Below are positions 63 through 47,923 of a stretch of DNA of 58,320 bases, piece after piece. Each line of letters opens with the position of its first letter. Position 1 is the first letter of the stretch. The stretch lies in contig JAPOXO010000129.1 in assembly GCA_026707045.1 (NCBI GenBank), positions 1-58,320 on the forward strand, written 5' to 3'. Position numbers and translations under genes: made by a program. This DNA comes from Gammaproteobacteria bacterium. Lineage in GTDB: Bacteria; Pseudomonadota; Gammaproteobacteria; Pseudomonadales; Azotimanducaceae. Below the pieces are notes generated by a model. It was given only the letters and a program-made list of their open reading frames with translations, had not been told where the DNA came from and did not search any database.

Positions 63-1244
63 CTATGTATGTTCTACAGGCAGCAGATCTCGTCCCAGTC
101 CCGACCTATGCACGTTGTGAAAATGTTGTAGTGCAATTTCATTTCGTCCAAGCACAATATCCGATTGCACTCCAAGCTCGGCGTTAACCTGAATGTCCTC
201 TGCAATTGAATAGTCTTCATTCTCAACGACATCACGAAATCTCTTGAGTCTTTCGGCATAAGCGGACTCATTGTCGGTAAAGTACTTTTGCACGTTCGGG
301 TCTATATACCAAGCATGAATTGTTCGAGACTTCGAAGGCGTGTTATCGAGCGGAAAAATGCGCAGGAAGTCCACGCCGAAAGCGTCCACCATCATCAAAA
401 CGTTGGGATAGAAGAAGTACACGGTGTAGGTAATCTGCTTGTAAGGCCATTTGTCACGAATCGGCATCAGCAATCTCATCAAGTTTATCTTCTCGTTGGC
501 TATAACCATTCGCAGGTTCTTTCCAAAGCTATCGAATGTCTGAGCGTTGCCCACAACTTCCTTGTCTAAAGTCTCGGTGTGCAATACATTCAAATGGTAG
601 ATCTCGCCGTAGGAGTCGACACCAATCTTCCAGTTCATCCGTGCATCGATAACCTGCGTACCCGCAAAAGGATATTCTGAGAATTTCCAATGAGCTAGGT
701 CTCTATCAAGTCCAGCAAGGCACTCCGATTCCTCTATGGGGTCACCCAGAGTTGGTCGTACCCACAACGTCCCATACAACTCCGCCGAAGGCAACTCAAT
801 GAGATGAAGACCTAGACTCGAGACATCTCCAAAATGCGAGCTTTTGTTTACCGACTGCAAACGACCATCAATTCCATAGGTCCAAGCGTGAAACGGACAT
901 GTAAAACGAACTTTGGCACCGCGTCCCTCGGGCACGACTAAACTTCCTCGATGTCGGCACACGTTTGCAAACGCCCGGAACTTTCCCGTGCTATCTCGAA
1001 CCATGAGTATCGGTGTGCCTGAAGCATTGTCCGACCAGTAGGTATTAGGTTTAGGAAGTTCGGATGAAAGACCCATGCATAAAGGTGTGTTGCGAAAGAA
1101 GACTTCGCATTCTTGCTCTAAGAGAAGAGGGCAGGTAAAGTCGGACATAGGAGCCCGCATGATGCCGCCAGCGTCTGCGGTAGTGTCGTTCGCAATATGT
1201 TCTGTAAGAACATCTAGAATGTGAGTTCGTTCAGGCTTGTCCAC
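63..1244 (-). CDS. Rieske non-heme iron oxygenase, alpha-subunit type
   Basis: This is an aromatic-ring-hydroxylating-dioxygenase-like alpha subunit of 393 aa. The Rieske [2Fe-2S] ligands are visible as CRH (C96, H98) and CPFH (C116, H119). The catalytic mononuclear iron site follows in GEIYHLNVLH (H217, H222), and a later EDI acidic motif could give the third ligand. It is the last gene of the sterol cluster, 133 bp after the cyclase fusion and on the same strand, so it may oxidise a sterol, for example a C-4 methyl group or a ring position. That substrate is inferred from context only. The start used is GTG at 1244 and lacks a clear ribosome binding site; an in-frame ATG at 1160 is an alternative. 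No ferredoxin or reductase partner is encoded nearby. Confidence 0.85.
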   Translation of the reverse strand: MDKPERTHILDVLTEHIANDTTADAGGIMRAPMSDFTCPLLLEQECEVFFRNTPLCMGLSSELPKPNTYWSDNASGTPILMVRDSTGKFRAFANVCRHRGSLVVPEGRGAKVRFTCPFHAWTYGIDGRLQSVNKSSHFGDVSSLGLHLIELPSAELYGTLWVRPTLGDPIEESECLAGLDRDLAHWKFSEYPFAGTQVIDARMNWKIGVDSYGEIYHLNVLHTETLDKEVVGNAQTFDSFGKNLRMVIANEKINLMRLLMPIRDKWPYKQITYTVYFFYPNVLMMVDAFGVDFLRIFPLDNTPSKSRTIHAWYIDPNVQKYFTDNESAYAERLKRFRDVVENEDYSIAEDIQVNAELGVQSDIVLGRNEIALQHFHNVHRSGLGRDLLPVEHT

Positions 1245-1377
1245 GAGACGAATAACCTAGCTTTCTTGAATGGGAACCTTCAAATTACAGTATGACTTGA
1301 TCGAAAAGGCAATACACGATAAAGTCATTCTTAAATCATTGCCACTCAATAACACCGTCCGCGATTTGCAAAAGTCT

Positions 1378-4300
1378 TTACATACTGCTTGCGTCTGAAC
1401 CTGTTGGGGAATCAGTTTTATACCGTATTTCACGAGATTCGCGGCGTTTTTCGTACAAACCAAGCGCAGCAAGTGGAAAGTACTGTCGATAGAGGTCGTA
1501 ATCCAAAAGTGCCGTACGAAAAAACACTCCCGCCATATCCTGCCTGCTCCAAGATCCATCTTCTGACTGGCAATTTATCAGAAACTTGATTCCACGAGAA
1601 ATCGCACTCCAGTTGGACTCTCCTGCTTCGAGAAGAGCGATTAGAGCCCATGAAGTTTGGACAATTTGTCCCTCGTGATGGGGTACATAGTAGCCTTTCA
1701 AGCAACCACTATAGTGCTCGCCCCAACCTCCATCTTCACGTTGGCGATCAAGTAACCATCTACATGCGAGTCTCACGGACGGGTCGCCCGGGGCAGCACC
1801 GGCTGCCCGCAATCCTTTGATTCCAAACAGCGTGCCATAGATAAACTGCACTCCCCATACTCCACGCCATGATCCGTCAGTAGCCTGCGTTCTTCGAAGC
1901 CAAGCCTCTCCCTTTGCCATCGCGACCTTAATGGACGCATCTGTGATGGTCGAACAGCTCTCGGCAAGGGCTGCCATGCATGACGCGGTGCATTCGACAT
2001 AGGATTGTTCCGTCATTGATTCACCGAACATTTCGGCAGGATTCAACCATTCGAGATTGAGCGAAGATTTTCTAGCCTCATAACTTCCAAATCCCCCATC
2101 TTGATTTTGGCTGCGCAGTATGAATTCAACCGCTTCGCGAAGTGCGTCCACATCGATAGCTTGTGAACGGGTGTTAAGCAAGCCGAGTATGGCTTCGGCA
2201 GTGCAGTCACTCACCGGCCACCCATGCCAAATACCAGCAAAACACCATCCGCCTTTCGGATCACTCCTATATGCCGCTGCAAAGCCCTCGAAGCTATTTC
2301 GTATCTGTTGGCTAGCTAGGAAATTTGCGCCCAGATCGACAGCTTTGTTGACCTCCGAATCTAGAGGCACTGCAGCGAGTGCTTGTAAGGCAAATCCAGT
2401 ATCCCAGGAAGCACTTCGTGCTCCTGTAACCCGAGTTCCATTCGTTTCGTCTTCCCAAATCCAACCTTCTAGTCGCGCCTGAGCCTTCCGACAATTTTCG
2501 TCTTTTGGGTCCTGTAGCCACAATGCAAGAATGTTGAGAAATCCGCTGACTGGAGAGATGCTCGTATGGTCCGAACTCTGCAGTTCCCAGCGAATTCGAT
2601 CGACGAGTTTGTTGACACACTTTGCGCGCAGTCGTTTGACGTGGAATCGTTCAAACATACGTCCAATGCCAAAGACCAATCTAAGTCGGGCTGTCGGTGG
2701 TGCAAAGACATCCTCAGTTCGAAGTCGCTTGCGTCCTGAGGCGAAGTTGATCTCTTCAAAATCTTCTTCGTAGAGTTCGTCACGTAGCAAATTTATTAAC
2801 GGTGTCACAGGCGCTTGAAACTTACTCGAATAGACGACGCTCATCGCCATATATATGAGGCGCGTATGACAATACCAATTCGAAGGATGCAATGGAATCC
2901 AATTGGGAATGATCCACAATTCTGGCAATATTGGGTTCAGTCCCGTCCAGTCGTAAAGGTTTAACAGCGCTAGCCAGAACTTCCCCCAGCTGGGAATTCC
3001 TAGAACACCCTCGGAGCGAAGGAATCTTCCGGCTTCTTCGATTAGTGGATCACTCTTGTCTACCCCAAGAATCCTGGAAGCAACGTAGACTAGCGATGTG
3101 ACGAAAAGATAGGGGTGTGAGTGCTCATGAAGTCCCCAGACTTTTCCTTTTAAGCGTGTTCGTTTGAAATTTCGAAGGACGAGACGGCGGCGAAGAGGTC
3201 CGATCTGAGTACCCAATATGTAACTCAGAAGCACATACTGTGCAGTAAGCATCGGACACCAGACCATCTCACCTTCCCACCTTCCGTCGTCGTGCTGAAG
3301 ATCCAAAAGTCGGTCGGTTGCAAGTTGCAATGCTTGGCGTGCATCGAGCTGATCAGACCCATCTGGTGAATGTGTAGTTTGCCGCGCATGATCGTTCGTT
3401 TGCATAGACGCCAGCAATGAATGAGACCATTTGGACCAAAGATGTTCGGTGCGATCTTCAACGTCGCCTTCAGACTCTTTCAACGACCTGAAGCTGCTCA
3501 GGAAATTCCTGACACGGGACACGAGAGCTCCCGTAATCTCTTGTGTGCGTTTCCAAGCTTGTGAACTCAAGGACCGCGGAGCGGAATTCGCGATTGCCTT
3601 CGCCATGATTGAAAAAAATGTTAGTCCCAATCCGGCTAAGGACACGTCTTCGCAGGCTAGAAGGTTCATCGTCTTCTTGCGAACTTTTGGACTTCTCCGC
3701 CATCGACTATAGGTTGCCTGCCGGACTGCCACCGACTCAGGGCGATAATCAGCAAATACTTCGTAGAGTCCGAGTGCAAGGCGCTCGGGTGCACGCACAG
3801 CTTTCTTCCTGCTGGTTGAAAAATCTCTGAAGTTCGATGTGCTCGCCAAGGACAGCGCGTCACTGAACCCAAGAGTTATTCCGACCGCTGTCAAAGGATG
3901 GTAGTGTCCTGCTGCGTCGCCAACTAGCACTCGTTGAGAGTTCCCATAAGTTGCACGCGGCAACAACTCATTTCCTGCAGCTTGAAACTCTCCTTTGTGA
4001 ATCGCTGCTATGAATTCTTGGCGTACTGTGTTTGGTAAGAGATATGCGTATGACTCCAATAGCATTGCAACTCGGTCTCGAGGAGTCCAGTGGTCTAGAG
4101 GGACATCGACGATGACTCGAACCCGGTTCGCGTCGAGCCTGAACATGAGAATGGGACCCGGCCCACCTAGGATTACGTGTCCGTATCCTTCGTGTGGAAG
4201 TTGGGCTGCTTGTGCTACAACACCAATCATGCGTGAGCATGTCATCCGATCCTTAGGCAGTCCCAACGACTTGCGGACGACAGAAGCACGCCCATCTGCG

Positions 4301-4767
4301 CCGACTAACCGATCGGTCAAGAACGATCTCTTTGTGCCTTCAAGCGAAAACGTGATTCGTCGCTCTTCGATGTCTCGCACTCGTGCGCCGCTGAAGAAGT
4401 GCACGTTCGAATTGAATTCAATCTCTTTGTGGAGAATCGAGACGAGTGCGGAGTGTTCACAAGCCATGCCTGCGGCATCGTTGGGATACGGGAGCATGAT
4501 CGGTTCCGAACGGTCTTCCGGATATACCACAAACCCGTTTCCAGGGCTACTCTGAGGGCAGTCGTCTAAAGTAATACCAAGTTCGCCAAGCATACGAATG
4601 GCTGGAGGATGGAGCCATTCACCTGCCAGCCGATTGGAAGCCTTGGGATTCGCTTCGAGGAGGGCAACCTGTGCTCCCTTCTGAGCGTGGGCAAGCGCAC
4701 ACACGCTTCCCCCGGGCCCCGCGCCTACGATGGCAACGTCGTATTGAGGAGGAATGGAGTCGATCAA
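1378..4767 (-). CDS. Squalene monooxygenase / oxidosqualene cyclase fusion
   Basis: One uninterrupted frame of 1129 aa joins two consecutive sterol enzymes. Residues 1-430 are a class A flavoprotein monooxygenase: GAGPGG (15-20) binds FAD, VGADGR (155-160) is the DG motif, and GDAAGHYHPLT (283-293) is the GD motif with the HPLT signature of squalene epoxidase. Residues 475-1105 are a triterpene cyclase of the oxidosqualene type: the protonating motif is DCTAE (854-858) rather than the DxDDTA of squalene-hopene cyclase. LNLYDWTGL (602-610), WLNPAEMFG (907-915) and several QW repeats (near 889, 962, 1011, 1069) also match eukaryotic-type cyclases. A polar linker (about 430-475) separates the halves. 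The expected reactions are squalene to 2,3-oxidosqualene to a protosterol. Its ATG overlaps the CYP51 stop by 4 nt (ATGA). Bacteria normally encode these as two genes. Confidence 0.93.
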   Translation of the reverse strand: MIDSIPPQYDVAIVGAGPGGSVCALAHAQKGAQVALLEANPKASNRLAGEWLHPPAIRMLGELGITLDDCPQSSPGNGFVVYPEDRSEPIMLPYPNDAAGMACEHSALVSILHKEIEFNSNVHFFSGARVRDIEERRITFSLEGTKRSFLTDRLVGADGRASVVRKSLGLPKDRMTCSRMIGVVAQAAQLPHEGYGHVILGGPGPILMFRLDANRVRVIVDVPLDHWTPRDRVAMLLESYAYLLPNTVRQEFIAAIHKGEFQAAGNELLPRATYGNSQRVLVGDAAGHYHPLTAVGITLGFSDALSLASTSNFRDFSTSRKKAVRAPERLALGLYEVFADYRPESVAVRQATYSRWRRSPKVRKKTMNLLACEDVSLAGLGLTFFSIMAKAIANSAPRSLSSQAWKRTQEITGALVSRVRNFLSSFRSLKESEGDVEDRTEHLWSKWSHSLLASMQTNDHARQTTHSPDGSDQLDARQALQLATDRLLDLQHDDGRWEGEMVWCPMLTAQYVLLSYILGTQIGPLRRRLVLRNFKRTRLKGKVWGLHEHSHPYLFVTSLVYVASRILGVDKSDPLIEEAGRFLRSEGVLGIPSWGKFWLALLNLYDWTGLNPILPELWIIPNWIPLHPSNWYCHTRLIYMAMSVVYSSKFQAPVTPLINLLRDELYEEDFEEINFASGRKRLRTEDVFAPPTARLRLVFGIGRMFERFHVKRLRAKCVNKLVDRIRWELQSSDHTSISPVSGFLNILALWLQDPKDENCRKAQARLEGWIWEDETNGTRVTGARSASWDTGFALQALAAVPLDSEVNKAVDLGANFLASQQIRNSFEGFAAAYRSDPKGGWCFAGIWHGWPVSDCTAEAILGLLNTRSQAIDVDALREAVEFILRSQNQDGGFGSYEARKSSLNLEWLNPAEMFGESMTEQSYVECTASCMAALAESCSTITDASIKVAMAKGEAWLRRTQATDGSWRGVWGVQFIYGTLFGIKGLRAAGAAPGDPSVRLACRWLLDRQREDGGWGEHYSGCLKGYYVPHHEGQIVQTSWALIALLEAGESNWSAISRGIKFLINCQSEDGSWSRQDMAGVFFRTALLDYDLYRQYFPLAALGLYEKRRESREIRYKTDSPTGSDASSM

Positions 4768-6167
4768 CGAAAAACGCTTTGTTGGGATCGACTGCGGTAG
4801 CGAAGCAAACAGGGCAACTTAGGGCCGGTCACCCAGCTACCGTAGTTTGGGGACGGAAATGGCATGTCGAGAGAAAACTCAAACCGGTCTAACAATACAC
4901 TCCAGAGGGCTTTGATTTGTAGGATGGCAAAGTTCTTGCCCATACAACGATGTTTGCCACCGCCGAAACCTATCAATCCTTGCAGGTCCTCATTGGCAGG
5001 AGGTGCAAATCTGTCGGGATTAAAACGATCGGGTTCAGAGAACAAATGTGCAAGTCGGTGCGAAACCGCGGGAGATACTACAGCCATGGTGTTGGCCGGA
5101 ACGACTCGATTCCGATATGTCATCGGCCTAAGCACCTTGCGAATGAGAAGAATCAACGGCGGGTGCAGTCGTTCGCTCTCCCGTACGGCGTTTTCGATCA
5201 GCTGTTGGCGCTTGAGACCGGCAAAACTCATACCGCCGTCCTCTTCGTAGATCTCCCTCATTTCCTGCCTGATTCGATTAATGTAATTCTCGTCCCTCGC
5301 TAACTCTAATCCCATCCATGTGGCGAGCACCGCGCTTGTGTGCTGGCCTGCGAAAAGTGCGGTCAACGTAATACCTGTGATTTCGTCGACAGTCAACTCT
5401 CGTCCATCTTTGTATCGAGCGCTCATGAGAGTTTTCATAAAGCTCTCGGAATCTGAATCCGAGGTTCGATGTTCCTCCATGATCCGAGTAAAGATTTCCG
5501 TGATCTGCCTTCGTGCTCGGTCCCTTCTTCGATGTGCAGGAATTGGAATTCGAGGAAAAAAGAACCCTATAGTGTTGATGCCGTTTTGGAGTTGGTGATA
5601 TGCCTCAGCGAATTCCTCATCTACTTCGCGTCTAATCTCTTCACCTAAGAAGCATCGACTAGCAATGTTCACTGTGAGTTGGTTCATCGCAACCGGTACA
5701 TCCAACACACCTTCAGAACCCATGACATCAGCGAAGGTACTTGCTTCCTCGTACATGATTGCGACGTACCGACGCATGGCAGACTCTCGAAGCGCTGGAA
5801 ACAGAAAACCCAGTTGTTCCGTCATGACTTCAGGTGCGACGTCATATGCCACTCCACGACCAAAAATGGGAACTGTGAACTGGTAGACAGACTTTGGATC
5901 GAGTTGATCTTCGGGTGCCTTGAAATATGCCTCGTGAGCTTCCATACCACTGAAGAGGACAAAGTCGTACGGACCGATTCGGAAGCGGAATAGGTCGCCG
6001 CACTGCTCGTATCCGCGCAACAGCAGCGCGAGAGGGTCTGTTTGAAATTCCTTCAAGTGGCCCAAGACCGGCCAGCCGCCAGTCAGAGTGGGAATCGCCT
6101 CAGTTTTGTTCGACGACGTGGTGTTTATTTCTTGAATTTGATCGGCCATCGCTCGCTCAATGGACAA
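4764..6167 (-). CDS. cyp51: Sterol 14-alpha-demethylase, cytochrome P450 CYP51
   Basis: This 467 aa P450 removes the 14-alpha methyl group of the first sterol intermediate. CYP51 hallmarks are the substrate-recognition segment VPIFGRGVAYD (99-109) and the I-helix FAGQHTS (272-278). The ESER motif (330-333) supplies ExxR, and the haem loop FGGGKHRCMGKNFA has ligand C408. There is no N-terminal membrane anchor, as is usual for bacterial CYP51. Its ATG lies inside the end of the sterol reductase gene (11-nt overlap), and its stop overlaps the cyclase start, so the three genes are probably translated from one mRNA. An in-frame ATG at 6149 is an alternative start. Confidence 0.95.
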   Translation of the reverse strand: MSIERAMADQIQEINTTSSNKTEAIPTLTGGWPVLGHLKEFQTDPLALLLRGYEQCGDLFRFRIGPYDFVLFSGMEAHEAYFKAPEDQLDPKSVYQFTVPIFGRGVAYDVAPEVMTEQLGFLFPALRESAMRRYVAIMYEEASTFADVMGSEGVLDVPVAMNQLTVNIASRCFLGEEIRREVDEEFAEAYHQLQNGINTIGFFFPRIPIPAHRRRDRARRQITEIFTRIMEEHRTSDSDSESFMKTLMSARYKDGRELTVDEITGITLTALFAGQHTSAVLATWMGLELARDENYINRIRQEMREIYEEDGGMSFAGLKRQQLIENAVRESERLHPPLILLIRKVLRPMTYRNRVVPANTMAVVSPAVSHRLAHLFSEPDRFNPDRFAPPANEDLQGLIGFGGGKHRCMGKNFAILQIKALWSVLLDRFEFSLDMPFPSPNYGSWVTGPKLPCLLRYRSRSQQSVFR

Positions 6168-7224
6168 AAGGAATCATCGAAAATCGTGCTCGTTCAATGT
6201 ACCTATCCCATAGTTCGCCATACTTTGCCCTGCATCTGCGATCGTCGCGCCACGACCGATGTCCGAGCAATCCTACCAACCATGCGACCAACAAAAGAGG
6301 AATCCAGGACTCGAGACAAGCTATGAGAACGAATGCCAGGTAAACACAGATTTCGCCAGTGTAGTTGAGATGTCGGCCTATTCCCCAAAATCCCGATACC
6401 AATAGTCGCCCGTCCAGTGTTTCCGCTGGCTTTCCCCAAATCTTGGCGCGGGAATCCTGTTTGAATCGGTGCTTTTGTTCGTTAGCGCCACGGAACAGCC
6501 AGAAACCAAAAACGAACAAAGTCACCAGTGCTACTGCAATAGCTGGCGCTAGCGTGGCCTGAGCGTGCACGAGAAACCAACCCGCAATGCAGTAGAAAAA
6601 CGGTACAAGTACGAAATTGCCCCACACCAACATACATCCGAATCGTTCACTGACAATGTCCCATGTGTGGACCATTCCGTATTCGAACTGAAAGTAGTTG
6701 AAGATGTACACAAAGGTGAAAATTTGATAGAGCACCATTGCGAGCGACAGTTGGCCATAGGTCTCGACCTGCACTACCGCGAAAGAAATGTTGAAGAGTG
6801 CCAGGGCTATCAATGACGGACGATAGCTGAAGAACTTCAAGTCAATTCCGAGCCATACCGGATTGAGGTCTCGACCCAAGAAAAAGCCGCGAAAGAACCC
6901 TTTGAATGAATTTCGGGACTCGGAACTTCGCCAATACAACCATCCAGATAGTGCAAACGCTACGACGTTTGCCACAATGAACAGAATCCAGAAATTGTCT
7001 TGTACGAACGTCAAGGAAAACCACCCCAACAGGTGTGCGATGCCAACCACAAGTAAGGTCAAGAGAAACAGAGCAAGCCCGTTCAACTTGAAAACGCGGG
7101 TAACTTCTCCCCCTTCAGCTAGTACGACCTTTCGACCGGGTAGGAGTTTTGAGCCGACGAAGAGAACGGTTAGAAAGGCAACCACCGCTCCTGTTGTTTG
7201 CAGGATTTCAATTCCCGTGTTCAC
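6157..7224 (-). CDS. Sterol reductase, ERG24/DHCR7 family (probable C-14 reductase)
   Basis: This polytopic membrane protein of 355 aa belongs to the ERG4/ERG24/DHCR7 sterol reductase family. Family signatures are GRDLNPVWLGIDLKFF, ERFGCMLVWGNFVLVPFFY, LLVSGFWGIGRHLNYTGE near the C terminus, and the terminal YGELWDRYIERARFSMIPF block. About eight to ten hydrophobic segments are visible. The gene next to it encodes CYP51, whose product carries a 14(15) double bond, so NADPH-dependent C-14 reduction is the natural assignment. The same family also contains C-7 and C-24(28) reductases, which the sequence alone does not exclude. It lies 12 bp after the SdmA-like gene and overlaps CYP51. Confidence 0.88.
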   Translation of the reverse strand: MNTGIEILQTTGAVVAFLTVLFVGSKLLPGRKVVLAEGGEVTRVFKLNGLALFLLTLLVVGIAHLLGWFSLTFVQDNFWILFIVANVVAFALSGWLYWRSSESRNSFKGFFRGFFLGRDLNPVWLGIDLKFFSYRPSLIALALFNISFAVVQVETYGQLSLAMVLYQIFTFVYIFNYFQFEYGMVHTWDIVSERFGCMLVWGNFVLVPFFYCIAGWFLVHAQATLAPAIAVALVTLFVFGFWLFRGANEQKHRFKQDSRAKIWGKPAETLDGRLLVSGFWGIGRHLNYTGEICVYLAFVLIACLESWIPLLLVAWLVGLLGHRSWRDDRRCRAKYGELWDRYIERARFSMIPFVH

Positions 7225-7236
7225 TGCTAGTTGACT

Positions 7237-8334
7237 TCAAGCCTTAGCAGATTGCGAATCCTCTTCGCGCTCCAGACACTCGCGCCACTTTCGCACCGTG
7301 AGAGTTTGAAAGGCATTAACTGCAGGATTCAATTCAACAGGAGGAGCATCCCAATGTTGCTCGTAGGCTGATTGTTCCGCTTCGACCGCGAATCTATCCT
7401 GGTCAAGCAAAGGAGCGATGAGAAAGTGGTTTGAGACCTTCATAACTGCTTTCATAGCAAATCGTGGAATTCGCACAGGAAGCAGCGGGATCTTCAACGA
7501 CTTAAAGTAGAACAGGAAGAAGCATCGCGTAGTCCTTTCATCGACTGGTAGAACAAAGAGCCAATGCTTGATTGCATTGTCTGTATTGGACCATTGATAC
7601 GGATATTGGTAGCAGAGCTCGATATGGCTGGTGTCGATACGATCGTGTTCGACAAACCGACCCGAGATGCGACCGCGTCCAACCTTAGAGTCATAAGCAA
7701 CATGTACGCTATCGTCAATTGTCTCGCATCGAGTTAGATCGGCACCTTCAAAAGGCTTGTATCGACGATGCAGATGGGCATGCGTGAAGTCGCTTACATT
7801 GTCAATTACCATTGAGTGATGTGCTGCCCAAGTGAACACTAACGGCACACAAGCCCACGATTTTGGACCTTCAAGTTCGGGAATATCGGGAATCTGTCGA
7901 TTTTCTGCCTGCTCAGGGTCGCCGGGAAACAGCCAGACCAATCCGTAACGTACTTTTACTGGGTATTTCCTTAACGCAAGTTTTGGAAAGCCACGTCCGA
8001 ATCTCTCATGTGGAATCTCAACAACCCGACCGTCCGCATCGTATTGCCAACCGTGGTAAGCACAGACTAGGCGACAATCTTCAACGGTTCCTAGAGAGAG
8101 CTTTAGTTGCCTGTGCGCACAACGGTTCTCAATTGCGTGAAACGATCCTTCTTGAGTCCGAAATAGCGCAATTGAGTGCTTCCAAAAAACTATCTCTACC
8201 ACGGTTCCTGGCTTTACATTGCGCACTTCTTCAACTGCGTACCAAAAGTTCGGATCCATGCCGGTGGCGCGGGCCTGTTGTCGCAATCGTTTCGCTTCTG
8301 CAAATGCGGGAGGCTGTTTTGTTATTAAGTTCAT
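7237..8334 (-). CDS. sdmA: Rieske oxygenase, SdmA-like sterol C-4 demethylase candidate
   Basis: This is a 365 aa Rieske-type oxygenase. The [2Fe-2S] ligands are C72/H74 (RCAHR) and C91/H94 (CAYHGWQYD). The catalytic iron site is DNVSDFTHAHLH (178-189), with D182, H185 and probably H189 as ligands. The general layout matches the pheophorbide-oxygenase, KshA and Neverland branch that handles steroids and large hydrophobic rings. In Methylococcus capsulatus, SdmA (Rieske) and SdmB (NAD(P)-dependent dehydrogenase) demethylate sterols at C-4. Here the gene directly follows an SdmB-like gene with a 4-nt overlap, which supports the same pairing. The substrate is inferred from context and family. 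Confidence 0.75.
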   Translation of the reverse strand: MNLITKQPPAFAEAKRLRQQARATGMDPNFWYAVEEVRNVKPGTVVEIVFWKHSIALFRTQEGSFHAIENRCAHRQLKLSLGTVEDCRLVCAYHGWQYDADGRVVEIPHERFGRGFPKLALRKYPVKVRYGLVWLFPGDPEQAENRQIPDIPELEGPKSWACVPLVFTWAAHHSMVIDNVSDFTHAHLHRRYKPFEGADLTRCETIDDSVHVAYDSKVGRGRISGRFVEHDRIDTSHIELCYQYPYQWSNTDNAIKHWLFVLPVDERTTRCFFLFYFKSLKIPLLPVRIPRFAMKAVMKVSNHFLIAPLLDQDRFAVEAEQSAYEQHWDAPPVELNPAVNAFQTLTVRKWRECLEREEDSQSAKA

Positions 8335-9452
8335 GATGGGACTGAACTCCCATCCATTATTTGTTCACCCACTGTAGGGGATGTTACATCTGGTGCCTTT
8401 GCACGTGGGTTTGTAATCGAGCCTCGAGCGTAGTGGAATGCATAGGCCTCCTGAACAGCTGCGCGAATGCTCGTTGGTTGAAAACCAAGTTCGCTCTTCG
8501 CCCTATCGGTGTTGGCATGTCGCCGTTTCTTAAGAAGGCGAATTGCACCAGGAGTGAATCTCTGTGGATAGTTTGGGTGAAATCGGCTCAAGTAAAAGCT
8601 TGCTAATTCAGAAAGCACGTACATGATAGGTGTAGGAATCCGCAACCGCGGTCGAGGAATTCCCGACACTTCCTCGTAAAGGTCCAGGATATCGGATATG
8701 GTCTTATATTCGCTAGCAAAAATATATTTCTGACCCGTGCGTCCCTGATTCATACACAACAAATGCCCTTCGACAATATCGCGCGCCGCAACAAAGGCAA
8801 AACCACCATCGACGTAAGCTCGAACTTTACCACTTGTGTAATTGCACAAGGTCCTTCCCAGTCTTGAAGGTACGTAGTCTGCACCTCCAACCACCGCACA
8901 GCATGTAGCAATGACAACATCCTGCCCAAGCGCAACTGCTTTTAGGCATTCATGCTCCACGAGCACCTTGCTTCGTTCATAAGGCATGGTTCTTTCCATG
9001 GGATAGAACTGCATCGATTCGTCACTAGGGGCAGATGGATCATCAAGTTCGTATCCAACGGCACTAAACGATCCTGTGACTACCACTCTTCCGGCATCGG
9101 TTTCCCGCGCCGCTTGAAGGACGTTTCGCGTTCCTAGCACATTGCACTCAAATATCTCCCGCTTGTGGACTAGATCGCCGTCGATTGTGGAAATCTTTGC
9201 AGCACAGTGGTAGATTGAACGGCATCCGTTTAGTGCTGTTCGTGTCGAGTCAAGATTCCGAATGTCGGCATAGACTCGTTCGACATCCAGCCCGTCCAAA
9301 GCTTCATTTCTACTCTCTTGTCTCAAAAGTACTCTGACTCGAACTCCATCGTCGATAAGACGACGGACTAGATTTGCGCCAACATGACCTGAAGAACCAG
9401 TTACTAGAACTGGAGCATCCGAAGATTCGGTTGTGTTAGTTTGCGCGTTCAT
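8331..9452 (-). CDS. sdmB: NAD(P)-dependent sterol dehydrogenase/decarboxylase, SdmB-like extended SDR
   Basis: This extended short-chain dehydrogenase (373 aa) is of the 3-beta-HSD/epimerase type. It has a cofactor loop TGSSGHVGANLVRR at the N terminus, a TGSFSAVG strand and the catalytic YERSK motif. It resembles HpnA and dihydroflavonol-reductase-like proteins as well as sterol C-4 demethylation dehydrogenases. Position next to a Rieske oxygenase inside a sterol operon suggests oxidation of the 3-hydroxyl with loss of the C-4 carboxylate, as for SdmB. The frame extends upstream to a TTG at 9521, but the ATG at 9452 places the Rossmann motif at the usual distance from the N terminus and was preferred. 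The stop overlaps the sdmA-like start by 4 nt. Confidence 0.75.
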   Translation of the reverse strand: MNAQTNTTESSDAPVLVTGSSGHVGANLVRRLIDDGVRVRVLLRQESRNEALDGLDVERVYADIRNLDSTRTALNGCRSIYHCAAKISTIDGDLVHKREIFECNVLGTRNVLQAARETDAGRVVVTGSFSAVGYELDDPSAPSDESMQFYPMERTMPYERSKVLVEHECLKAVALGQDVVIATCCAVVGGADYVPSRLGRTLCNYTSGKVRAYVDGGFAFVAARDIVEGHLLCMNQGRTGQKYIFASEYKTISDILDLYEEVSGIPRPRLRIPTPIMYVLSELASFYLSRFHPNYPQRFTPGAIRLLKKRRHANTDRAKSELGFQPTSIRAAVQEAYAFHYARGSITNPRAKAPDVTSPTVGEQIMDGSSVPS

Positions 9453-9524
9453 TTCTTGGTTGGAAGAGTTTGCGAATGTAGCCTTCGGCTGAATGAACCA
9501 TAACTCAATTCGCCACAGCAATAG

Positions 9525-11822
9525 CTATTGCACATGCGTGCCACCCGCCTCAAAGGCAAATGCCTCGTAACCAATTGCTTCAATGCCTGCTTTCACGGAT
9601 TCTGTTCCATTGGGGCACAGAGCAACAACTGAGCCTCCGCCGCCTCCTCCAGTTAGCTTCGCACCAACTGCACCATGCCGACGAGCGATTTCGACAATTT
9701 CCTCTATTTCCCTCGTCGATACCTGAAGAGCATTCAAAAACCCTTGGCAAAGGTTCATCAAATCGCCGAGTTCGTTGAGTGCGCCGACGCGAGCGGCCTC
9801 CGCGCCTGCAATGGTCAACTCGTCTATTTGGTCGAACACTCTCTCATAGCGCTTCTTGTTTTTTTTCCAAGCTTGTGCCACACGGGCCACTGTTCCGGCA
9901 GTAAGGCTTTCCTTTCCAGTCTGTGCAATTATCAGAGGCAAGGGGGTTGTAATAACTATATCCTGAAAAGAGGAGGGGCGTTCTTGACTAGGACCGCGAA
10001 ACAGAATGGGCTTACCGTAAGTTGCGACAGTATTGTCGACTCCTGAAGGTGTTCCGTGAGCTGAACGTTCACATTCGAATGCAAAGTCGTTTACCTGACT
10101 GTCATTCAAACCCAATCCGAAGTGAGTGCTGAGAGCTCGAATTACACTTACTGCTAGAGCCGCCGAACCTCCAAGTCCGACCGCTCTGGGTACATTGGGG
10201 AAGACTTCAATAGTCATTGGTCGATTGGTCAGTTCTAGTCGCTGCAGCAAGAGTGCAAGGATTCCCGCAACTCCAGCTGGATGTTCATCCAATGGAGGTA
10301 CTCGTTGCTCGACACCCCATCTGGGAATAAGGAGCTGGACACCATCTTCAGCATCCACGACTCGGGACTCCACGGCAAGCGGAATAGGGGCGGCCATAGC
10401 CGAGCGTCCGTAGACCACAGCATGCTCTCCCAAGAGGACAACTTTTCCACATGCGGAACTACGAGGCTCAGCCTCTGGAGTGGGAACCTCGTTCGTCTTT
10501 TTCAACATTCGACTGACGATTTCCTCGGCCTTCCAAACCTTGATTTCTCCGCTCTCAATCAACGCATCGACTACTTCGTCAAACAGTTCCTGAGGTACAT
10601 TTGCAGTAGACGCTACGCTACGCGCATGCAGCGTCATGTGGTTTTGCTGTATTCCTGCAGTAGACAACGATCGAAGCGCTGCATAGTTCTGCGCTAATCC
10701 CACAGCACCGATAATTCCGGCAAGCTTGGATGCATCGGGATTGCCAAGCAATCTGAGACTAAGGCGAACCGAAGGATTTGTCTCGAGAGAGCCGCCGACT
10801 GTTCCCACCTTTACAGGCATTTCAATTTCGCCCTTTAGGTCGCCTTCCTCGGTCGCATACCAGCGGGTGAGCGCGCGATATCGTCCAGAGCGAGCTGCGT
10901 AGGCGTGTGCAGCAGCCTCGATTGCTCGAAAGTCGTTTCCCGTTGCAATGGCAATGGCGTCGACGCCATTCATGATGCCTTTGTTGTGGGTGGTGGCTCT
11001 GTATGGATCTACAAGTGCTAAATCGTTGGCGAGTACGATTCCGTCGCGAACATCTTCGCCAGAAAAACCCTTCATCGTAAGATTCTGAGCAGGAATCTTC
11101 ACTTGCGCTCGAACAAGGGCGCGATCCGTCAAGTTCGAGAGAATTCGCAAAAAGACCTTGCCTCCGGCAATGCCTTCCACAAAGCTCGCCACGCCTTCGC
11201 ACATACTATTGACGATGTTTGCTCCCATGGCATCTCTAGTATCTACCAGCAAATGCAGCACCAACATATCGCGCTCCGGAGCACCTTTAATTCCTCCTTC
11301 CGGCACACGATGGTGAAACACTTCAATGCCTTGCACGCCGCCTCCACGTGCAACCATCTTGGGGTGCAGGCTATTTGCAAGATTGATGATTTCGTTTTCG
11401 TGCTCGAGCAACTTCTGCTTCGCGTTGTCTACATTTGCCGGATTCACGATCTGCACCTGGCCGATCAGAACGGGAGCAGAAACTTCAGTCTTGTAGCCTC
11501 CTGACAATCTGGCCGTTCGCGCTGCACCTGAAAGGCCAGCAACAATCGATGGCTCCTCAACTGAGAGAGGCACGATTACTTCTTGCCCATCTATCAAGAA
11601 GTTGAGACCGAGACCTAGCGGCAAACCAAAAACGCCAACCACGTTTTCGATCATCTTGTCGGCTACATGGCACCGTAGTGTGTGACTACCGTGTTCGAGG
11701 GCTACCAAGTCTTCTTCAGTCAGATCCGTATGAGCACGAAGGGCTTCAATACGATCCTTGACGCTCAACTTGAAGAAATTTGGGATTCGCGACCTTAAAT
11801 TGGATGCAGTAGCGGCTGTCAT
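9525..11822 (-). CDS. Class II HMG-CoA reductase / mevalonate kinase fusion
   Basis: A single 765 aa protein carries two mevalonate-pathway enzymes. Residues 1-440 are a class II (bacterial/archaeal) HMG-CoA reductase: catalytic Glu in IENVVGVFGLPLG (E59), DAMGANIVN, K281 in HNKGIMNG, D297 in GND, and the late histidines in QNHMTLHAR. Residues 455-765 are a GHMP-family mevalonate kinase: CGKVVLLGEHAVVYG, the ATP loop PRAVGLGGSAA (545-555), SGVDN with catalytic D596, and a glycine-rich KLTGGGGGG near the end. The start chosen is ATG 11822 because AAGGAG lies about 10 nt upstream; the frame continues to a TTG at 11846. The product would convert HMG-CoA to mevalonate and then to phosphomevalonate. 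The two enzymes are not consecutive with the rest of the pathway here, since phosphomevalonate kinase and the decarboxylase are absent. Confidence 0.93.
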   Translation of the reverse strand: MTAATASNLRSRIPNFFKLSVKDRIEALRAHTDLTEEDLVALEHGSHTLRCHVADKMIENVVGVFGLPLGLGLNFLIDGQEVIVPLSVEEPSIVAGLSGAARTARLSGGYKTEVSAPVLIGQVQIVNPANVDNAKQKLLEHENEIINLANSLHPKMVARGGGVQGIEVFHHRVPEGGIKGAPERDMLVLHLLVDTRDAMGANIVNSMCEGVASFVEGIAGGKVFLRILSNLTDRALVRAQVKIPAQNLTMKGFSGEDVRDGIVLANDLALVDPYRATTHNKGIMNGVDAIAIATGNDFRAIEAAAHAYAARSGRYRALTRWYATEEGDLKGEIEMPVKVGTVGGSLETNPSVRLSLRLLGNPDASKLAGIIGAVGLAQNYAALRSLSTAGIQQNHMTLHARSVASTANVPQELFDEVVDALIESGEIKVWKAEEIVSRMLKKTNEVPTPEAEPRSSACGKVVLLGEHAVVYGRSAMAAPIPLAVESRVVDAEDGVQLLIPRWGVEQRVPPLDEHPAGVAGILALLLQRLELTNRPMTIEVFPNVPRAVGLGGSAALAVSVIRALSTHFGLGLNDSQVNDFAFECERSAHGTPSGVDNTVATYGKPILFRGPSQERPSSFQDIVITTPLPLIIAQTGKESLTAGTVARVAQAWKKNKKRYERVFDQIDELTIAGAEAARVGALNELGDLMNLCQGFLNALQVSTREIEEIVEIARRHGAVGAKLTGGGGGGSVVALCPNGTESVKAGIEAIGYEAFAFEAGGTHVQ

Positions 11823-11964
11823 TCTGCCGTGACTCCTTGAGCGCAAACCGTCATATCGCCGTGAGAGTGCGACATTCTACATGTTTGTTGAGAGTTTTGC
11901 TTGTGGTTCCAGCAGCGTTTTGGAGAAGCCAGAATCGTTTCAATTGGCCTTGATAAATCGAATT

Positions 11965-12531
11965 CTAAGGCTCAAATTCCGCCAGAAAATCGGTACGTAA
12001 TCGCTTCCATTCGATCATAAGCCATGGGGTAAACATCGAGGGTTCGATTTCGATTTCCCGATCAAGTTTGTCGGGACTGGTCCATCGCCACTCTGCGATT
12101 TCAGAAGCATTGACATTGGGCTCCTGTGTCGTAACACAAGTAAATACTGAACATAGTTCGTATTCAGTACCTATGTTCTGAAACGACGCTCTGTAACTAA
12201 ATTTGAACAAGAAGCGAGGGTCGACTGAGAGTCCAAGTTCCTGTCGCGCGCGCCTTTCTACCGCTTCATCAATGGATTCGCCGTGTCGTGGATGGGAACA
12301 GCAACCGTTGGACCAATATCCTGGCCAGAGTCGTTTATCCGGATGTCGTCGTTGCAGGAGAGTTTCGCCTTGCAGATTGAAAACGAATAGTGAGAACGCA
12401 CGATGCAAGGTGCCGTCACCGTCGTGACACGAAGCCTTGTCAAGAGTGCCTATCTGTCGGTCGTTGTCGTCTACGAGAATCAGCGGTTCATCGTCACTAG
12501 AGACAAGTTCGAATCGATTTAATTTGCTCAC
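11965..12531 (-). CDS. idi: Isopentenyl-diphosphate delta-isomerase, type I
   Basis: This Nudix-fold isomerase interconverts IPP and DMAPP. It has the metal/catalytic motif NGCCSHPRHGE with the active-site Cys of the E. coli NSVCGHP motif, the Nudix-like EAVERRARQELG helix, and the second catalytic Glu in EYELCSVF. The GTG at 12531 gives 188 aa, close to the usual length. The frame is open to a TTG at 12570 and neither start has a strong ribosome binding site. It is the promoter-proximal gene of the minus-strand isoprenoid/sterol cluster, 142 bp before the reductase-kinase fusion. Confidence 0.92.
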   Translation of the reverse strand: MSKLNRFELVSSDDEPLILVDDNDRQIGTLDKASCHDGDGTLHRAFSLFVFNLQGETLLQRRHPDKRLWPGYWSNGCCSHPRHGESIDEAVERRARQELGLSVDPRFLFKFSYRASFQNIGTEYELCSVFTCVTTQEPNVNASEIAEWRWTSPDKLDREIEIEPSMFTPWLMIEWKRLRTDFLAEFEP

Positions 12532-12690
12532 CCGACAAGTATAGGCATTGAGTCGACTGCCAATTTCCAATCAGAAATCAAGCTGACGACTTACAACCTG
12601 GCCGCAAGTGTCAGACTTGATAACCATAGGGCTACAATTGCGAAGAATTCTCGGTTTGTTGCAATAAGCAAACAGAAACAGGAGGGCCTC

Positions 12691-45564: not shown

Positions 45565-46581
45565 TCAGAAAACTGAATTCAGTTGCATTCCGGAATTGTT
45601 AGCACGCGTACAGAGTACTTGTCCTCGAAGGGTTTTTCGTTTTTCAAGCTCTCTGTTTAGCTTGTCAACAATTGATTCGTCCGAGAACTCGTTTGAATCA
45701 AAGAAACCGAACATAGTCGCGCCTGTGGATGAGAGGCCGCAACCATGAATTCCAAAAGTTGCGCCAAACGCAGACTTCACCGATCGAAGAGGCTGCATGT
45801 CGGGCCGATTCCAATGTCTCCGTTTCCATCCTTCATCCTGAATGGCATCAAGACTCAAGCCAAACGTTTCGAGATCCAATTCGCGCAATGCGGGCAATAG
45901 AAGCATCAAGATAAGGTGCGATACAGACTGAACTTCGACGAGAGGAATAGGTGTATTGTTCAGCATGAAATCAAGCTCTTCCTGTCCTGATAGCCCACGA
46001 TGTTCGCTCGGAATGAAAAGCACTATTCCCCAAGTCCTGGGAAATTCGACACGCATTAGGAGTGGTGGTTGACCCACTTTCGTTGCGAAATGAGAGGGTG
46101 CGAATGACTTCTTCTGAGAATTTACTGAGTGTCCTCCATCAATCAATAGTCCACCGTTCTGAAAAGCATTGATACCGATACCCGATGTGCCTCCGCGAGT
46201 GGACATGGTGCAGAGCTCTTCGAGTGAATGGTTCAATTCGAATCGTTCGTTCAACGCTGACAATATTGCCAACCTAATCTGAGTCCCTGAACCCAATCCT
46301 TGATGCGGAGGAATTGTTTGCCTTATCGAAATTTGAATGTTTGGCTTCACATGGAGTATTTCACAGCTTGCTGCGATCTCTGCAGCCAGTAACTGTTGCT
46401 CACTTCGTGAGCCCCCATTAATCTCAGTTCGTTCGTGCGGACCGAATTCAAACGAAAATCCGGGGTGTTGGATTGAAAGACCGAGGCTGCCGTCCACACG
46501 GCCGCTCTCGCCATTCATGTCAATAAGGGTGAAGTGGAGTCTCGAAGGTGTACTAATTCGATGAGTCAAGGTCGAGCACAT
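45565..46581 (-). CDS. Beta-ribofuranosylaminobenzene 5'-phosphate synthase-like (GHMP)
   Basis: A 338 aa GHMP-superfamily protein matching beta-RFAP synthase, which joins para-aminobenzoate or para-hydroxybenzoate to PRPP in methanopterin synthesis. Signatures are PSRLHFTLIDMNGESGRVDG (about 13-32), the glycine-rich HQGLGSGTQ loop, and RGGTSGIGINAFQNGG followed by DGGH. The gene starts inside the TrpB2-like gene (29-bp overlap), so both are translated together. No other methanopterin genes are in the window, so the product could also be a different aryl riboside. Confidence 0.85.
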   Translation of the reverse strand: MCSTLTHRISTPSRLHFTLIDMNGESGRVDGSLGLSIQHPGFSFEFGPHERTEINGGSRSEQQLLAAEIAASCEILHVKPNIQISIRQTIPPHQGLGSGTQIRLAILSALNERFELNHSLEELCTMSTRGGTSGIGINAFQNGGLLIDGGHSVNSQKKSFAPSHFATKVGQPPLLMRVEFPRTWGIVLFIPSEHRGLSGQEELDFMLNNTPIPLVEVQSVSHLILMLLLPALRELDLETFGLSLDAIQDEGWKRRHWNRPDMQPLRSVKSAFGATFGIHGCGLSSTGATMFGFFDSNEFSDESIVDKLNRELEKRKTLRGQVLCTRANNSGMQLNSVF

Positions 46582-47923
46582 CTGAGAATCCCTTTAAGTC
46601 CAGATATCCGTGACCCGACAAACAAAAAACTATCACCTGTTTTTGCCTGGTTTTTGCAGCGTCGATTGCCCCCAATACTGCATGTGCACTTTCCGGGGCA
46701 GCAAGAACACCTTCTGTTTTTAGGAATACTTGGCCTGCTTCAAAGACTTCTTTCTGACTGTAGGTCCGGGTATTGACCACATCGTTCTTGACAAGTGCGG
46801 AGAGCACAGGCGTCTTGCCGTGATAGCGCAATCCTCCCGAATGAACTGGAGGCGGTACAAATCGATGGCCGAGGGTATACATCAGAATTCTAGGTGTTAG
46901 TTCAGAAAAGTCTGCCCAATCGTAGCGATATTCCCCTTGGCTCAAAGTTGGTATTGAATCAGGCTCGATGGCGCAAAATTCTATAGGACTTCCGCCAATT
47001 TTCTCGGGCACAAATGGTGCGATAAAACCTGTGAAATTGCTTCCTCCTCCTACGCAGCCGACCATCAAGTCGGGTGACCTATCCACTTGTTCGAGTTGTC
47101 GCTTTGTCTCCAGTCCGATGATGGATTGGTGTAGGACGGCGTAGTAAGACATACAACCCAGGGCTAGTCGACGACGGCGATCTTCCTTTACGTACTCGAT
47201 TGCTTCACTCATGCCAATGCCGAGACTTCCAGAATTGTTGGGGTCGTCTTTGAGGATACTCCGCCCAGTTTGTGTCAGTTTGCTAGGAGATGAGTAAACA
47301 CTTGCTCCTGCCATTCGCATCAGATAGCGACGATATGGCTTTTCCTCGAAACTCTTGCGAATCATGAACACATCACAATCTAGCCCAAGAGTCTCGCACG
47401 CCATGGCGAGGGCAGCTCCCCACTGACCAGCTCCTGTATCCGTAACCATACTGCGTATGTTTGATTCTTCTTCGAGGGTGGCGTAGTACGCCTGAACCAA
47501 TGCTGTGTTGAATTTGTGGCTTCCCGCAGGATTTAGATCTTCACGCTTGTAGTAAATCTCGCTAGTCGTTCCGAGGTACTTTTCTAGGGTGCGTGCACGC
47601 ACGAGAGGAGAAGGTCGGTAGCGTCGATAAACTTCAGATATGGAGCTTGGAATCTCGATCAACGCGTCTGTTCCATATTTGCCTTTGTGTAGCTCTATTC
47701 GAAGACACTCCAGAGGCCACAACCAGTCGTAGTCCTCAATTTCAACTGGTCGGTCTTCGATGGGATGCAATGGCTTTGGAACGTCAAATGGCAGTTCGGC
47801 CACAATGTTGTACCAGTTCCGGGGCAGTTGCGACTCCGAAAGGAAAATCTTGTTCTCGTTGGTCGCCACACTCTCATAATTCTGGTATTTGGCCATTGCA
47901 TCTTGTGCCAAGTCTAGTGCCAT
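46553..47923 (-). CDS. TrpB2-type pyridoxal-phosphate enzyme (tryptophan synthase beta-like)
   Basis: A 456 aa PLP enzyme of the TrpB2 group. YKREDLNPAGSHKFNTA contains the PLP lysine. ETGAGQWG-like DTGAGQWGAA, KPYRRYLMRMAGA and GSLGIGMSEA are TrpB2 hallmarks, and GCVGGGSNF is the phosphate-binding loop. TrpB2 proteins do not pair with TrpA and some have other beta-replacement roles. No trpA is nearby. The coupling to a beta-RFAP synthase suggests a role outside tryptophan synthesis. ATG 47923 is the start. Confidence 0.9.
   Translation of the reverse strand: MALDLAQDAMAKYQNYESVATNENKIFLSESQLPRNWYNIVAELPFDVPKPLHPIEDRPVEIEDYDWLWPLECLRIELHKGKYGTDALIEIPSSISEVYRRYRPSPLVRARTLEKYLGTTSEIYYKREDLNPAGSHKFNTALVQAYYATLEEESNIRSMVTDTGAGQWGAALAMACETLGLDCDVFMIRKSFEEKPYRRYLMRMAGASVYSSPSKLTQTGRSILKDDPNNSGSLGIGMSEAIEYVKEDRRRRLALGCMSYYAVLHQSIIGLETKRQLEQVDRSPDLMVGCVGGGSNFTGFIAPFVPEKIGGSPIEFCAIEPDSIPTLSQGEYRYDWADFSELTPRILMYTLGHRFVPPPVHSGGLRYHGKTPVLSALVKNDVVNTRTYSQKEVFEAGQVFLKTEGVLAAPESAHAVLGAIDAAKTRQKQVIVFCLSGHGYLDLKGFSDVLDLDSSN

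Follow-up and report, generated by a model that had tools for sequence, protein, structure and literature searches.

In a gammaproteobacterial symbiont of Melophlus sarasinorum, the genes msbA–E encode an NAD(P) oxidoreductase, a Rieske oxygenase, a sterol reductase, a lanosterol demethylase, and a bifunctional squalene epoxidase/cyclase, while msbF encodes a sterol methyltransferase (SMT) (MT026193; PMC7074536). A core of ERG24, CYP51, and LSS has also been reported, under the name CSGs, from 115 of 537 Ircinia metagenome-assembled genomes (MAGs) of 11 classes (PMC9531527). The stretch analyzed below, referred to as the window, comprises 58,320 bases (positions 1 to 58,320) of contig JAPOXO010000129.1 from a gammaproteobacterium of the Azotimanducaceae. 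Between positions 63 and 12570 it holds eight open reading frames (ORFs), all on the minus strand, and their core, SdmB-SdmA-ERG24-CYP51-SQMO::OSC (the last a fused squalene monooxygenase and oxidosqualene cyclase), is the msb/CSG cluster already known from sponge bacteria (2020, 2022). The most likely reading of the locus, with a probability of about 0.78, is a sterol operon of the msb/CSG type of sponge symbionts, complete for the post-squalene steps, to whose 5′ end idi and a fused HMG-CoA reductase-mevalonate kinase gene (HMGR-MVK), both imported, have been added. As far as searched, this extension is new: no description of an HMGR-MVK fusion, or of a sterol operon with mevalonate genes, was found among the titles and abstract openings retrieved from the open-licence PMC literature.

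Judged by the published description of the Melophlus cluster, the window has counterparts of all of msbA–E: SdmB-SdmA-ERG24-CYP51-OSC are co-directional and contiguous, and epoxidase and cyclase form one polypeptide. In contrast, the msb flanks, compared by their description in the available text, bear no resemblance to sterol genes, whereas the window has idi and HMGR-MVK before the core and a second Rieske oxygenase (Rieske2) after it. The Ircinia CSGs show the same ERG24-CYP51-LSS order. On their 5′ side stand DFR and a gene annotated as hypothetical, probably SdmB and SdmA, and their 3′ end has an SMT or squalene synthase gene in the opposite orientation, which is also the case in two relatives of the window (G014 and G006); unlike the window, the CSGs appear in the available description (PMC9531527) without mevalonate or idi genes, and SdmA and SdmB are unannotated there. 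CYP51, an ERG24-type reductase (in some), SdmA/SdmB, and a lanosterol-type cyclase are also found in Methylococcus and Methylotuvimicrobium (PMC4919349; PMC13277303), which differ in having CYP51 with a ferredoxin and 8,14-Bsr, and whose SdmA/SdmB equivalog cut-offs the window proteins do not reach. Moreover, fused SMO/OSC homologues are mentioned in the methods of a paper in which SMTs from sponge metagenomes were active (PMC10070321). Since the core operon, fusion included, has been published for a gammaproteobacterial sponge symbiont and CSGs have been reported from Ircinia, the statement of an earlier note on this DNA that bacterial sterol synthesis is known in few groups is outdated. Its gene calls, layout, class assignment, contig integrity, and rarity of precursor genes beside the sterol block all stood; it overlooked that each of the two large ORFs encodes one fused polypeptide, that the cell probably has no other copy of HMGR-MVK, and that dxr and ispH find no match in the genus. 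Both the core cluster and its epoxidase-cyclase fusion are already published; unexpected to a specialist are the relocation and foreign affinity of HMGR-MVK and the lack of an HMG-CoA synthase match.

Gene content, order, and distribution of the sterol operon

Pfam, NCBIfam, and solved-structure searches gave strong family matches for each of the eight ORFs, which bears out the identities first proposed for them. At the 5′ end, idi (11965..12570, minus strand, like all that follow) encodes a type I isopentenyl-diphosphate isomerase of the NUDIX family (TIGR02150, 146.6 bits; cut-off 105.8), and the next gene (9525..11846) a fusion of class II HMG-CoA reductase with mevalonate kinase, 773 amino acids (aa) long (TIGR00532, 389 bits, cut-off 260; TIGR00549, 235 bits, cut-off 163). 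An SdmB-like SDR protein, homologous to MsbA and predicted to be a sterol C-4 decarboxylase/3-keto reductase (8331..9521), is followed by an SdmA-like Rieske oxygenase, homologous to MsbB and predicted to be a sterol C-4 methyl oxidase (7237..8334; Rieske C-H/C-H motif at residue 72). The ERG24-type sterol C-14 reductase (6157..7224, 355 aa) matches PF01222 with 209.8 bits, its best solved structure being the delta(14)-sterol reductase 4quv (E 9e-60), and the sterol 14-alpha-demethylase CYP51 (4764..6167, 467 aa), which is without a fused ferredoxin, has CYP51s as its best solved structures (E 7e-105). The SQMO-OSC fusion (1378..4767, 1129 aa; PF08491 and TIGR01787) is the second fused ORF of the operon, and Rieske2 (63..1244, 393 aa; PF00355 and PF00848) has carnitine monooxygenase 6y9c as its nearest solved structure (E 1e-22). 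From idi to Rieske2, the intergenic gaps measure 118, 3, -4, 12, -11, -4, and 133 bases; the same-strand arrangement with several overlaps was thus correctly described, with three overlaps, and HMGR-MVK through SQMO-OSC form a tight block in which only 3 bases separate HMGR-MVK from SdmB. Since the window starts at the very edge of its contig (base 1 of 151,982), the sequence beyond Rieske2 is outside view.

CYP51 carries the motifs YQFTVPIFGRGVAYD, AGQHTS, and FGGGKHRCMG, and shows the B′-helix, I-helix, and heme-loop signatures of this family. In the fusion, the SQMO domain occupies approximately residues 1-440 and the OSC domain approximately residues 475-1110, the first half aligning with human squalene monooxygenase (6c6n) and the second with lanosterol synthase (1w6k); a structure model of the whole protein was too poor (pLDDT 60.5, pTM 0.42) for reading the domain arrangement. 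The cyclase has a DCTAE motif at 854, scores 515 bits with TIGR01787 (cut-off 323), and carries V at human position 453, a residue tied to lanosterol (PMC4919349).

The fused cyclase occurs in 11 of 18 genomes of the genus, including that of the window (G000, a 3.34-Mb bin, 95% complete), and the order SdmB-SdmA-ERG24-CYP51-SQMO/OSC is kept in all 10 others, although contig ends divide the cyclase in G008 and G016 and its frame is broken near the C-terminus in G004. Between the window and G006, all eight genes are conserved (pN 0.09-0.20 vs. a saturated pS of 0.70-0.76), and in a FastTree cyclase tree the window groups with G006, G014, G011, and G004 (local support 100). In 40 genomes of other genera, any match to the fused cyclase was weak, with 27% identity for the best one to its cyclase part (G021), and 6 of 369 genomes spread over the class, that of the window included, match the cyclase at E 1e-60. 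A scan of named genomes found 265 relatives, of which the best 80 were taken as named loci; these extend over 10 kb or less, and contig ends truncate some of them, which makes the counts of idi and in-line HMGR lower bounds. The titles of these 80 include at least Gammaproteobacteria, Alphaproteobacteria, Nitrospira, Rhodothermales, Acidimicrobiia, Chloroflexi, Acidobacteriota (Bryobacterales), Gemmatimonadetes, and Binatota. All six core domains are co-directional in 57 of them, which, together with the core order kept in all genus relatives that have the cyclase, excludes a chance grouping; SQMO and OSC share one open frame in 75 (the rest comprising three stops, one frame change, and one contig end), and SMT is matched in 40. 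The earlier proposal that precursor genes seldom adjoin the sterol block holds: at least 2 of the 80 have idi and at least 3 an in-line HMGR-MVK. An orthologue of Rieske2 occurs in one; among the loci read, it adjoins the operon only in G006/L050 (84% identical), and a match in L070 (30%) was rejected as not orthologous. Sponges are named in the titles of two loci (L056 and L073), and a jk18x name denotes an Ircinia MAG (PMC9531527). The uncultured bacterium of the window is probably a sponge symbiont; for its genus, a sponge origin is inferred.

Mevalonate supply and origin of the operon HMGR-MVK

Searches for dxr and ispH, positive in 9 of 14 controls, found no match in any of the 18 genus genomes. 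HMGR-MVK, in contrast, is present in all 18 (20 copies, two seen partly), and 15 of these genomes encode other GHMP kinases no more than a few kilobases from a copy. This mevalonate (MVA) cluster, read in G003, G005, G009, G011, G013, G015, and G016, consists of an amidase gene, the mevalonate diphosphate decarboxylase (MVD) gene, a phosphomevalonate kinase (PMK)-like gene, HMGR-MVK, and xthA, in two arrangements. In G000, G006, and G014, however, HMGR-MVK is gone from between PMK and xthA (gaps of 86, 85, and 2342 bases, respectively), and the one copy found heads the sterol operon, where G014 and G006 also have idi, 70-71% identical to that of the window. A decayed HMGR-MVK relic was sought in the 2342-base gap and rejected (best match E 0.6). 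G015 and G016 hold both an MVA-cluster copy and an operon copy. The operon HMGR-MVK is thus probably the sole copy of the cell. Among 61 genomes of the family (f1; hand count), 38 have HMGR-MVK (35 full-length, 3 in pieces), 18 have ispH (17 over the cut-off), none has both, and 5 have neither. This mutual exclusion suggests that mevalonate replaced the methylerythritol phosphate (MEP) pathway in part of the family and fits HMGR-MVK as the isoprenoid enzyme of the cell. HMGR, MVK, and IDI of the window score over the curated cut-offs of canonical mevalonate enzymes, as does MVD in the relatives G011 and G006 (scored from L148 and L149); in G000, MVD is split over two contig ends, and the PMK-like GHMP kinase remains under the cut-offs of TIGR00549 (76 bits) and NF040957 (75 bits).

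The HMGR-MVK tree was built from 36 of 49 collected rows, after removal of 3 short or long-branched rows and of 10 family rows that were mostly close kin of kept ones. The operon copies group with those of L080 and of G463, a genome of another genus (support 100/99), and the MVA-cluster copies of the genus form a separate group (99/97). A single clade of all genus copies is rejected by the approximately unbiased (AU) test (p 2.4e-7), which was not blind, the grouping being already visible in an earlier quick tree. G463 has a paired idi-HMGR/MVK, with a squalene-synthase-like gene (under its cut-off) approx. 7 kb off, and no sterol-operon or cyclase match within 20 kb of the pair. From these affinities, it appears that the idi-HMGR/MVK pair was imported from within the family and that the native copy was then lost.

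The pathway would begin with the conversion of HMG-CoA via mevalonate to mevalonate-5-phosphate by HMGR-MVK; a PMK-like kinase and MVD encoded elsewhere, together with idi, would then supply isopentenyl and dimethylallyl diphosphate (IPP/DMAPP), from which farnesyl diphosphate (FPP) and squalene would be made, the squalene synthase gene adjoining the operon in relatives. The two domains of SQMO-OSC would convert squalene to 2,3-oxidosqualene and lanosterol, followed by 14-demethylation (CYP51), C-14 reduction (ERG24), and C-4 demethylation (SdmA/SdmB-like), yielding a predicted lanosterol-derived, 4-demethylated sterol, to which Rieske2 may add a further oxidation. Since no dxr or ispH was found and the only HMGR-MVK located in the bin lies in the operon, the cell would express its essential isoprenoid supply jointly with sterol synthesis.

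Source of HMG-CoA and weighing of the explanations

HMG-CoA synthase was matched in none of the 18 genus genomes, of which 15 reach a completeness of at least 90%, with PF08540 and TIGR00748, PF01154 not being tried. A methylcrotonyl-CoA carboxylase beta (MCC-beta)-like subunit is present in all 18 (68-100% identity). Its best solved structures are AccD1 (4q0g), a chain labeled propionyl-CoA carboxylase beta (9tps), and methylcrotonyl-CoA carboxylase beta (3u9r, 8j4z), at 729-743 bits, compared with 469 bits for geranyl-CoA carboxylase and at most 278 for the other propionyl-CoA carboxylases listed. The name follows from these structures and not from NCBIfam, where the scan returned no methylcrotonyl model and only TIGR01117, under its cut-off. 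No adjoining leucine-pathway gene indicative of a liu operon was seen among the ORFs scanned around the carboxylase (4 of 4 on a 5.5-kb G000 contig, 3 of 10 listed in G013), and no leucine-pathway model was the top match of the acyl-CoA dehydrogenases and enoyl-CoA hydratases of the window. It is possible that leucine-derived HMG-CoA feeds the mevalonate pathway; this is offered as a hypothesis because such a carboxylase is common in ordinary leucine degradation and the search covered the beta subunit. A leucine shunt to HMG-CoA has been described in Halobacterium and Leishmania (PMC8791446) and would, here as there, feed HMGR without HMG-CoA synthase; unlike those cases, the putative one here would be bacterial, and of it the carboxylase beta subunit is shown. 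A canonical pathway from acetyl-CoA with an overlooked HMG-CoA synthase is the less favored but still considerable alternative: only two models were used, the search was confined to the genus, and TIGR00748 is a loose test (12 of 14 controls matched, 3 over the cut-off), whereas PF08540 matched 4 of 14 controls and none of the genus genomes.

Several observations weigh against an extended sterol operon as described above. The cyclase scores 712 bits with TIGR03463, below the curated cut-off of 851, and the SdmA-like and SdmB-like proteins score 410 and 307 bits, both under the 600-bit equivalog cut-offs of NF052579 and NF052578; C-4 demethylation and the product are therefore less sure. Since SdmA/SdmB homologues vary in the number of C-4 methyls removed (PMC10202945), the predicted C-4 demethylation may take off one methyl or two. 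Lanosterol synthases carry T and C/Q at human positions 381 and 449 (PMC4919349), where the window cyclase has A and H (alignment read by eye), so that the lanosterol call leans on a single residue. Because of the 118- and 133-base gaps, idi and Rieske2 may be transcribed apart from the block; sterol making and co-transcription are predicted here from the genes. Moreover, the operon HMGR-MVK copies form one clade excluding G463 in just 13% of bootstrap trees, and their foreign affinity could reflect an old duplication with losses. A second copy could also be missing from G000, which is only 95% complete, although G006 and G014 show the same pattern.

The extended operon must be set against the view that this is an ordinary CSG/msb cluster whose idi-HMGR/MVK neighborhood is incidental and without regulatory meaning. 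The rarity of idi and in-line HMGR among the named loci makes this conceivable, as does the fact that G004, G005, G008, G009, G011, and G017 have the sterol core and a single HMGR-MVK elsewhere among GHMP kinases (region read in G005, G009, and G011); yet the 3-base gap to SdmB, the retention of the operon copy in three species whose native copy is gone, and the adjacency of sterol and MVA genes, in opposite orientation, in L078 and L096 argue the other way, and we judge it the weaker account, worth keeping in mind. It is improbable that HMGR-MVK degrades mevalonate from the sponge rather than serving biosynthesis: the TIGR00532 model is named degradative, the HMGR domain resembles 1qax (the Pseudomonas mevalonii enzyme), and no HMG-CoA synthase was found, but the domain is fused to mevalonate kinase, the genus copies are linked to MVD and a PMK-like kinase, and HMGR-MVK goes with the absence of dxr and ispH matches in the genus and is mutually exclusive with ispH across the family. 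An assembly chimera or eukaryotic contamination, for which the position of the operon at the first bases of the contig and the typically eukaryotic nature of sterol genes might speak, was rejected and deserves practically no credence. G006 has the same operon and is syntenic with the window over 12.7-55.6 kb, smc-zipA-ligA included, which also disposes of a break between 12.5 and 29 kb; GC is 0.45-0.52 along the window, and the genes overlap in bacterial fashion. The class Gammaproteobacteria, proposed earlier, agrees with five same-genus contigs whose cyclase is identical to that of named Gammaproteobacteria or Pseudomonadales bacterium records.

Beyond the extended operon itself, it may tentatively be suggested, as a rather unlikely possibility, that this is a gammaproteobacterial lineage which has lost the MEP pathway, has no HMG-CoA synthase, and draws on HMG-CoA from leucine for its entire isoprenoid synthesis. 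In some of its species, the sole HMGR-MVK, together with idi, would have given way to a foreign copy taken up into the sterol operon, and one promoter would then govern the supply of sterols as well as of cell-wall/quinone precursors. With a housekeeping isoprenoid enzyme among its genes, a patchily distributed sterol cluster could become hard to lose, and the genus would offer a testable case of a leucine-fed mevalonate pathway in bacteria.

Genes beside the operon in relatives

In G014, a 247-aa membrane protein (c8), squalene synthase, and SMT are encoded on the opposite strand downstream of the operon, with homologues in G006; c8 itself lies at L049:12082-12825 (-) and L050:13376-14119 (-) and is matched, in some cases partially, in 23 of the 80 named loci from several phyla. 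The first solved hit of its structure model (pLDDT 86) is human EBP (prob 1.00, TM 0.52/0.59, E 0.05; next hits prob ≤0.41), and the first viral hit is an uncharacterized Megaviridae protein (E 6e-4). The EBP/EXPERA model is weakly matched by 10 of 16 c8 members (best E 0.0027; one score shown 10.3, cut-off 25.7), and the c8 profile (A3) found no EBP match among sequences of solved structures. On the strength of its fold and of the weak EXPERA matches, c8 is a candidate delta-8 sterol isomerase; an EBP-like isomerase of sponge bacteria would bear on who makes the sponge sterols that are used as biomarkers.

Further genes were noted in relatives. G017 has, on a contig separate from its sterol operon, a second, stand-alone oxidosqualene cyclase without epoxidase (L034:12298-14247 (+), 55% identical). 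An amine-oxidase-like FAD protein (L032:8883-10253 (+)) occurs near the cyclase in 19 of the 80 named loci and is 62-79% identical where present. In G011, a GPP34 (Golgi phosphoprotein 3) domain is fused to a cytochrome P450 in a 661-aa protein encoded a few genes upstream of the sterol operon (L024:5479-7464 (+)), with equivalents in G004 and G008. Finally, within the window itself (45565-47923 (-)), the gene of a beta-RFAP-synthase-like GHMP protein overlaps that of a TrpB-like enzyme; beta-RFAP synthase is best known from methanopterin synthesis, and such a protein is odd in this setting.

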